Shown piece by piece: positions 60,129-62,631 of a stretch of 64,000 bases of DNA. A program made the translations under genes and the position numbers. Positions within the stretch are counted from its first letter, which is position 1, and each line of letters opens with the position of its first letter. The stretch lies in assembly GCA_902523125.1 (NCBI GenBank), contig CABYYA010000001.1, positions 32,948-96,947 of the forward strand, read 5' to 3'. The notes beneath the pieces are model-generated. The model was not told the origin of the DNA, ran no database searches, and saw only the letters and a list, made by a program, of their open reading frames with translations. This stretch comes from an uncultured Pelagibacteraceae bacterium. GTDB taxonomy: Bacteria > Pseudomonadota > Alphaproteobacteria > Pelagibacterales > Pelagibacteraceae.

Positions 60129-61145
60129 ATGTATACAATTAATACAAAAATAAATAATCAGTTATCAATTTGGTTAATTATGATGTTTTGGATTATATCT
60201 TTTATGATAATAGTTGGTGGCTTAACAAGACTTACCGACTCAGGTCTTTCAATAACAGAGTGGGAATTATTTTCCGGATTTTTTCCACCTCTTAATCAAA
60301 ATGATTGGATTGTTTATTTTAATCTTTATAAACAAATTCCTGAATTTAAGTTACAAAACTACAATATGACTTTAAGTGAGTTTAAGGTTATTTTTTGGTG
60401 GGAATGGGCTCACAGGTTTCTTGGAAGATTGATAGGTCTTGGATTCTTAATACCACTTATCTATTTTTCATTTAAGATTAAGTTTGTTAAATTATTAAAT
60501 CTATATTTCATTTTTTTTCTCATATGTCTTCAAGGTTTCATTGGCTGGTATATGGTTAGTAGTGGATTAGTTGATGGAGTAGATGTAAGTCACTTTAGGT
60601 TATCTGTACATTTGCTTATTGCTTTTTTTATTTTGTCTTTAATTTTTTGGAATTATCTAAAAATTAATGTATCAAGAAATACAACAATCAAACTGAATAC
60701 ATTTATTCCTTTATTATTCTTAATCCTAATTTTTTTACAAATTTCAATTGGTGCTTTCGTTTCTGGTATGGACGCAGGAAAAATCTATAATTCATGGCCT
60801 TTGATGGGTAATTCATATTTTCCTGATGATAATAATTTTAATAATCTATTTGAAGTTGCAGCTTTAAGTGATCCCTCATTAGTACAATTTATTCATCGTA
60901 ATTTAGCTTACTTGATAGGAATTTTTTATATTTTAATTTTCTATAAGATTTATAGAAATAAGATGTATGATTTATATAAATCTATTAATTATTTGGGAAT
61001 ATTTATAATTCTTCAGATTATATTGGGTATTTTAACAGTCTTATATGGTGCACAGATTTATGTTGCATCTCTGCACCAAATAAGTTCAATTTTTTTAGTT
61101 AGCTCAAGTATTTATTTTTTTTATATAAATACAAAATTCAACTAA
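60129..61145 (+). CDS. ctaA: Heme A synthase
   Basis: IVGGLTRLTDSGLSITEWELFSGFFPPLN; WWEWAHRFLGRLIG; FIHRNLAYLIG. Confidence 0.95.
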   Translation: MYTINTKINNQLSIWLIMMFWIISFMIIVGGLTRLTDSGLSITEWELFSGFFPPLNQNDWIVYFNLYKQIPEFKLQNYNMTLSEFKVIFWWEWAHRFLGRLIGLGFLIPLIYFSFKIKFVKLLNLYFIFFLICLQGFIGWYMVSSGLVDGVDVSHFRLSVHLLIAFFILSLIFWNYLKINVSRNTTIKLNTFIPLLFLILIFLQISIGAFVSGMDAGKIYNSWPLMGNSYFPDDNNFNNLFEVAALSDPSLVQFIHRNLAYLIGIFYILIFYKIYRNKMYDLYKSINYLGIFIILQIILGILTVLYGAQIYVASLHQISSIFLVSSSIYFFYINTKFN

Positions 61146-62466
61146 CAGCTTTTAAACTTCCTTTCGATGACTTGTTTAAGGCTTGATCTAAATCATCAAT
61201 AATATCATCAATGTGCTCAATACCTATACAAAGTCTTACATAACTCTGAGTCACACCTGATGCTGCTAACTCTTTTTCGTTTAATTGACTATGAGTAGTA
61301 CTAGCAGGGTGTATAGCTAAACTTCTTGCATCACCAATGTTTGCTACATGATAGAACATTTTTAGAGACTCAATAAATTTTTTCCCAGCTTCAATGCCAC
61401 CTTTAAGTTCAATACCAATCATTGGTCCATTTCCACCTTTAAGATATTGTTTAGCTCTATCAGCAATTTTCTTTTCATGTTCTGTTGAATATATAACTTT
61501 AGTAACCTCTTTATGTTTTTTTAAGAAATTAACTACTTTTTCAGCATTTTCGCAATGTTGTTTCATCCTTAGAGCTACTGTTTCAAGACCTTGGATTATT
61601 GCAAAAGCATTATCTGGTGCTAAAGCTGAACCTAGATCTCTAAGCAAACAAACTCTTGCTCTTACTGCAAAAGGTACATTAGCCCCAGTTAATTCTGGTA
61701 CAGCTTTTCCCCAAACTACACCTCCATAACTTGCATCAGGCTCATTAAATAAAGGTTGTCTTTTAGGATCTGCAGTCCAGTCAAAGTTACCACTATCAAC
61801 TATGCTCCCAGCAACAGCAGTTCCATGTCCTCCAATATATTTTGTTAATGAATGGATAACTACAGCCGCTCCATGTTCTATTGGTTTACATATTACTGGT
61901 GCAGCAGTATTATCCATTATTAGTGGAATATTGTATTTTTTTCCAATATCAGAAACTTCTTTGATAGGGAACACTCTCAAATATGGATTAGGTAATGTTT
62001 CACCATAAAAAGCTCTGGTCTTACTATCTATTGCCTTTTCAAAGTTTTTAGGATCACTTGGATCGGCATATCTAATTTCTATTCCTAGTTTACTCAATGT
62101 GTGTGTAAATAATGAAACTGTTCCACCGTAAAGATCCGTAGAACTAACAATATTATCACCTGATTGAGCAACATTTAGAACTGCAAAACTTGAAGCGGTT
62201 TGTCCAGATGAAACTGTTACACAAGATAATCCACCTTCCAATGCTGCAATTCTTTTTTCCAAAACATCATTAGTAGGATTCATTATTCTGGTGTAGATAT
62301 TTCCAAATTCTTTTAATGCGAACAAATTTGCTGCATGTTCAGTATTTTGAAATTGATATGATGTTGTTCTATATATTGGCACAGCAACAGCATTAGTTGC
62401 TGGGTCACTTCTGTAATCACCACCATGTATGGCAATGGTTTCAGGATTATTTCTTTTTTTACTCAT
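61138..62466 (-). CDS. metY: O-acetylhomoserine sulfhydrylase
   Basis: ETIAIHGGDYRSDPATNAVAVPIYRTTSYQF; IHSLTKYIGGHGTAVAG PLP lysine. Confidence 0.95.
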   Translation of the reverse strand: MSKKRNNPETIAIHGGDYRSDPATNAVAVPIYRTTSYQFQNTEHAANLFALKEFGNIYTRIMNPTNDVLEKRIAALEGGLSCVTVSSGQTASSFAVLNVAQSGDNIVSSTDLYGGTVSLFTHTLSKLGIEIRYADPSDPKNFEKAIDSKTRAFYGETLPNPYLRVFPIKEVSDIGKKYNIPLIMDNTAAPVICKPIEHGAAVVIHSLTKYIGGHGTAVAGSIVDSGNFDWTADPKRQPLFNEPDASYGGVVWGKAVPELTGANVPFAVRARVCLLRDLGSALAPDNAFAIIQGLETVALRMKQHCENAEKVVNFLKKHKEVTKVIYSTEHEKKIADRAKQYLKGGNGPMIGIELKGGIEAGKKFIESLKMFYHVANIGDARSLAIHPASTTHSQLNEKELAASGVTQSYVRLCIGIEHIDDIIDDLDQALNKSSKGSLKAVS

Positions 62467-62470
62467 TTTA

Positions 62471-62527
62471 CTCCTTTTTTAGTGCTTTAGCTTTATGCAA
62501 GGCGCACAATACAGTTCAAATGCCTAC
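62471..62527 (-). ncRNA. Candidate SAM-II/SAM-V-like riboswitch aptamer overlapping metY Shine-Dalgarno
   Basis: Minus-strand AGGC-ATTTGAACTGTATTGTGC-GCCT-TGCATAAAGCTAAAGCACTAAAAAAGGAG: P1 AGGC/GCCT, loop-tail pseudoknot GTGC/GCAC, SD AAGGAG at 3' end. Confidence 0.7.
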
Positions 62528-62540
62528 CGAGTTTGTTTGA

Positions 62541-62588
62541 TAGTTTCCTTTTTAGCTGTTAGCCCGCAATAGGAACAAATCAGCAGTA
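62541..62588 (-). ncRNA. Possible second SAM-II-like element upstream in the metY leader
   Basis: Minus-strand CTGCTGATTTGTTCCTATTGCGGGCTAACAGCTAAAAAGGAAACTA shares GCTGATTT, TATTGC and AGCTAAAAAGG words with the SAM-II core; TTCC/GGAA can pair; P1 not clearly resolved. Confidence 0.4.
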
Positions 62589-62631
62589 TGAATATAACAA
62601 AAAAAAGGCTTAAAACAATATAAATATCAAT

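Follow-up and report, generated by a model that had tools for sequence, protein, structure and literature searches.

The leader of metY in this uncultured Pelagibacteraceae bacterium is reasonably likely to be a tandem of two SAM-sensing pseudoknots that has no terminator and in which the linker would make an alternative fold; one metabolite is thus probably sensed at two points of the same message. The downstream half, a SAM-V riboswitch, is already known. The new part is an upstream compact aptamer and the terminator-less tandem that it forms, which have apparently been overlooked. Neither a compact SAM-II-type aptamer nor a terminator-less metY/mmuM tandem was found in the literature searched, which left out Poiata et al. 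2009 (PMC2764483). The features of the leader are given below by position in the window, this being the whole 64 kb stretch of DNA that was analysed.

61138..62466, minus strand: metY, O-acetylhomoserine sulfhydrylase, 442 aa, with the ATG starting at 62466
62468..62534, minus strand: SAM-V riboswitch aptamer (RF01826), from the Rfam match and covariation
62525-62522 / 62503-62500, minus strand: SAM-V P1, AGGC with GCCU, from the sequence
62507-62504 / 62485-62482, minus strand: SAM-V pseudoknot, GUGC with GCAC, from the sequence
62471..62475, minus strand: metY Shine-Dalgarno AGGAG, directly 3′ of the SAM-V third strand, from the sequence, with its role published (PMC6061858)
62524..62544, minus strand: linker without a terminator, from the lack of a terminator-like site, complementarity against shuffles and pair counts
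62543..62586, minus strand: putative compact SAM-II-type aptamer, from two independent models (R2 and R3), alignments and P1 covariation
62584-62582 / 62564-62562, minus strand: P1 of the upstream element, three pairs
from 62581, minus strand: L1 of the upstream element, GAUUU, from the alignment
62571-62566, minus strand: core of the upstream element, UAUUGC, from the alignment
62556-62551, minus strand: third strand of the upstream element, GCUAAA, from the alignment
62575-62572 / 62548-62545, minus strand: pseudoknot helix of the upstream element, UUCC with GGAA, from the alignment
62591..62618, minus strand: predicted promoter, with −35 TTGTTT at 62618-62613, a 16-nt spacer and extended −10 TGT-TATATT
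62596-62591, minus strand: −10 hexamer TATATT, from column conservation

The SAM-V aptamer in front of metY

Positions 62468-62534 of the minus strand form a full SAM-V riboswitch, in the locus from which this class was first described. The Rfam model SAM_V (RF01826) matches over its full length (1-66 of 66) at 86.4 bits (gathering cut-off 41; E 6.3e-13 in the 64 kb window), and this and a tRNA are the only two Rfam matches in the window. The aptamer takes in the Shine-Dalgarno and lies no more than about ten nucleotides from the start codon of a methionine-cycle gene. The product of that gene matches TIGR01326 at 574.7 bits (cut-off 495.1) and is an O-acetylhomoserine sulfhydrylase of the MetY type. 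The divergent neighbour encodes ribosomal protein L13, and the riboswitch lies in the rplM/metY gap.

When the leader of the window was aligned with those of relatives (49 in all), 99.5 % of cells in SAM-V P1 and the pseudoknot were paired. Three pairs have changed on both sides, and none of 500 shuffles reached the covariation score. The nine ligand-site bases, with positions taken from the crystal structure paper (PMC6061858; U8, U9, U10, A18, U20, G21, U47, A48, and A50 in 6FZ0 numbering), are all present in the window and are 96-100 % conserved across the leaders.

The original prediction had placed a SAM-II/SAM-V-like pseudoknot at 62471-62527 and proposed that SAM binding hides the Shine-Dalgarno of metY. 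Its reading of the minus-strand sequence, P1, pseudoknot, and Shine-Dalgarno is correct throughout, and both the covariance-model match and the compensatory changes in homologous metY leaders that it named as checks were found. SAM-V is the right class, although the label was too loose, as this is a full SAM-V; likewise, the feature is present where it was placed, but those coordinates take in only half of a leader in which the conserved region reaches about 62586.

The interpretation offered for this half is supported, and it is also established knowledge. In ‘Ca. P. ubique’ HTCC1062, a SAM-V was reported between rplM(−) and metY(+) (Meyer et al. 2009, PMC2704228); one of the genomes used here (G011) is taken to be that of HTCC1062 because its SAM-V coordinates equal the metY, mmuM, and bhmT entries of that study. 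A crystal structure of the metY SAM-V with SAM is available (6FZ0; Huang and Lilley, PMC6061858), and by isothermal titration calorimetry the P. ubique metY aptamer bound SAM at 4.4 µM, with no binding of SAH detected (PMC6061858). For this same metY SAM-V, the third strand together with P2a, a helix of 2 bp, has been proposed to hide the Shine-Dalgarno (PMC6061858). The window shares with it the class, gene, rplM/metY position, pseudoknot, ligand-site bases, and a Shine-Dalgarno directly 3′; nothing material differs in the SAM-V itself, whereas the published unit is without the upstream aptamer.

Some leaders depart from this arrangement. In three metY leaders from sister genus g5 (L049, L050, and L098), a short ORF follows SAM-V directly and a second Shine-Dalgarno precedes the apparent metY start further downstream; the switch of these species may therefore work through a standby site or leader peptide. 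Nine leaders from the same genus as the window (L102, L105, L110-L113, and L115-L117) have a low-scoring SAM-V and no upstream aptamer.

Structure, relatives and distribution of the upstream element

The upstream block was found by extracting the leaders of relatives, where it lies directly 5′ of SAM-V and is conserved to an equal degree. Of its 41 columns, 22 do not vary at all across 49 leaders; in the linker, none of the 13 columns is invariant. By eye it looks like a shortened SAM-II, with L1 GAUUU, the UAUUGC core, a third strand GCUAAAAAGG, a three-pair P1, and a short UCC/GGA pseudoknot helix; the consensus reads GCCGAUUUGAUCC-UAUUGC-N-GGC-(loop)-GCUAAAAAGGAA. These motifs, with P1 and the pseudoknot, are those of SAM-II (RF00521, SAM_alpha; RF01726), which likewise sits at metX, metY, and related genes. 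The upstream element differs from SAM-II in that P1 has three pairs with one unpaired base, the loop is shortened, there is no terminator, and in the window neither Rfam model picks it up at E 10. The sole Rfam match on the element at that threshold, to rpsB, is spurious (12 bits against a cut-off of 40).

P1 of the element is supported by covariation. In a structure-blind alignment of 46 diverse members, 100 % of P1 cells are paired, with compensatory changes at all three pairs (GC to AU, CG to UA, and CG to UA); none of 500 shuffles reached this covariation, and versions slid along the alignment pair in 19-56 % of cells. The metY/mmuM leaders taken by themselves vary so little that they show scant covariation. 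The pairs of the pseudoknot helix are kept almost throughout with little variation, and a two-sided change is seen in two sequences; what looks like a change in L007 comes from a shift in register and was left out of the covariation. Nested single-strand folding, which ignores pseudoknots, was uninformative, and by it the leader is no more stable than shuffles (z 0.24). A leader peptide in this region was rejected, since on inspection there is no conserved start codon and the spacing between blocks varies by non-multiples of three.

On the evidence of covariance models, the upstream element is homologous to accepted SAM-II leaders. The most telling independent test is R2, a model built from only ten metX/metW leaders of sister genera, which finds the element in the window at 39.1 bits, with the next window match at 9.8 bits; its E-value (6e-8), like those of the other two models, is rough owing to short calibration, and bit-score gaps were relied on instead. 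R2 also finds the metX SAM-II of the same genome at 43.3 bits. That locus (L002:1501-1575, contig C10) reaches only 29.2 bits against RF00521, whose cut-off is 36. A second independent model, R3, built from mmuM leaders only, gives the window element 53.5 bits. The Rfam SAM-II models reported nothing at ten stand-alone mmuM, metX, metW or g4 metY loci tested.

A model of the upstream element itself, R1, has matches in 142 of 398 Pelagibacterales genomes at E 0.05. When it was applied to the whole class, strong matches were confined to Pelagibacterales, and the weaker ones elsewhere are apparent ordinary SAM-II, chance or ambiguous. One similar element, at 29 bits with R1, is in another alphaproteobacterial family (L183:1501-1554), upstream of an ORF for a predicted membrane protein, which is not obviously a methionine gene.

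At classified Pelagibacterales loci, the element stands ahead of methionine/SAM genes only. It precedes SAM-V at metY and usually at mmuM, and both of these leaders carry it in HTCC1062 (L032 and L034). The element or close relatives also occur without SAM-V at metX (g2, g4, and g8), metW (g3), and metY (g4). In three mmuM leaders (L138, L144, and L148) the compact element is alone, with start codons 27-44 nt downstream. In eleven metX/metW leaders of sister genera (L154, L156-L160, L163, L165-L167, and L169), a short hairpin separates the start codon from the SAM-II-type aptamer and may belong to the expression platform. The g4 metY leaders (L175-L177) hold a variant with P1 GUC/GAC and the core GCUUGC in place of UAUUGC; this core change falls on the base equivalent to ligand contact A18, and binding may be altered in the variant.

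In all 49 metY/mmuM leaders, the upstream element keeps without exception the bases that correspond to the ligand contacts of SAM-V. This bears on whether the element could be a working aptamer for a related ligand or of altered selectivity, in which case the leader would integrate two signals. Single-base variants have switched ligand in other riboswitch classes, for example the spermidine variants of a SAM aptamer, and the shortened P1 and loop would fit such a change; however, with every contact-equivalent base kept at both metY and mmuM, and with the genes the same as those of SAM sensors, a different ligand is quite improbable and SAM is the preferred candidate.

Across 76 metY upstream regions, the first strand of P1 is preceded at a fixed distance, six bases away, by an extended −10 (TGnTAnAAA) together with a TTG at −35. 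From this pattern, transcription is predicted to start near 62584. A generic promoter/terminator scan reported nothing, and the promoter was read instead from column conservation. Operators are common at such positions, and the block could in principle be a DNA operator for a transcription factor with no RNA structure. This is very improbable, as covariation at all three P1 pairs fits an RNA fold, the block is homologous to SAM-II-type leaders at metX/metW, and the loop varies in length between invariant blocks, which fits RNA and not a fixed operator.

The linker and the proposed mechanism

There is no terminator-like site between the two aptamers in the window and no U-run in the aligned linkers. 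In the window, UCGGUAG (62530-62524) of the linker complements CUGCUGA (62586-62580), the 5′ strand of the aptamer, and an alternative helix between them is proposed. When 71 distinct metY linkers were matched to the 5′ strand of the aptamer, the best complementarity scored 15.9, compared with 10.0 in shuffled linkers, and two control targets showed no excess complementarity with metY linkers. The typical metY pairs are GCCGAUUU/AAAUCGGU. The linkers of mmuM use other stretches (ACCGAUU/AAUUGGU and AUUUGAU/AUCAAAU; L097, for example, has its own AUCAAAU against AUUUGAU), and their complementarity is significant in 5 of 16 and not in the other 11. The alternative helix has one-sided changes only, within A1. 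A helix between linker and aptamer is thus suggestive, not proven, and related leaders are not independent.

We infer that the upstream aptamer binds SAM, that it switches between two folds, and that this switch has an output. The aptamer lies at the predicted 5′ end of the mRNA and would be the first part to fold as the RNA is made. In the presence of SAM it would be held as a pseudoknot and the linker left free; without SAM, the linker strand AAAUCGGUA would pair back on the P1/L1 strand (GCCGAUUU) as a 5′-terminal hairpin. The two folds would be mutually exclusive because both use GCCGAUUU. The hairpin would touch the edge of SAM-V P1, which the metY linker strand overlaps by one or two bases. 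On the SAM-V side, as published for the class and the gene, SAM would dock the A-rich third strand, hide the adjoining Shine-Dalgarno, and turn metY translation off. The output of the upstream switch could be coupling to SAM-V folding, an effect on mRNA level, for example via 5′-end stability, or both.

Under sulfur limitation, mRNA in HTCC1062 rises 7.1-fold for metY and 6.1-fold for mmuM (PMC5069961), while SAM-V itself is translational. A SAM-II riboswitch in Sinorhizobium acts on mRNA stability as well as on translation (PMC9373788). A double sensor could help explain the rise in the metY and mmuM messages; the rise is support and not proof, because reduced translation alone can lower mRNA level.

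Comparison with reported tandems and significance

In the original 120 tandems of SAM-II and SAM-V, an intrinsic terminator always follows SAM-II (PMC9481103). The metY leader is like these in having a SAM-II-type aptamer and then SAM-V. It differs in lacking the terminator, in having a linker of about 20 nt complementary to the first aptamer, and in the genes, which here are metY and mmuM. For ‘Ca. P. ubique’, SAM-II is listed only at bhmT and metX (PMC5069961).

In a rival reading, only SAM-V senses, the upstream pseudoknot being a relic of a SAM-II/terminator/SAM-V tandem that has lost its terminator and at most a structural spacer. Sister genera do have the order SAM-II, terminator, SAM-V at metY (L044, L045, and L048), and a tandem may contain an inactive SAM-II, as at bhmT, where the SAM-II half did not respond to SAM in the full RNA (PMC11508383). 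A relic would not be expected, however, to keep its ligand-site equivalents invariant in 49 of 49 leaders, to show covariation in P1 or to stand alone at mmuM (L138, L144, and L148). It is therefore unlikely that the element is a relic, and two sensors remain the preferred reading.

If the upstream aptamer senses SAM, then SAM-V, which has been solved and probed as a single-aptamer switch, would be half of a native double sensor, and the upstream aptamer would be a candidate cause of the rise in metY and mmuM mRNA under sulfur limitation. The Rfam SAM-II models miss this form, which is widespread in SAR11. As the tandem is without a terminator, coupling of two aptamers for one ligand is directly testable.

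A fuller proposal is made tentatively, and is somewhat doubtful as a whole: that metY and mmuM messages in SAR11 may start with an unrecognised compact riboswitch of the SAM-II class which, having no terminator or Shine-Dalgarno of its own, would flip between a pseudoknot and a 5′ hairpin, control mRNA level, and prime SAM-V. If this is true, these very abundant ocean bacteria would have a steeper, double response to one metabolite.
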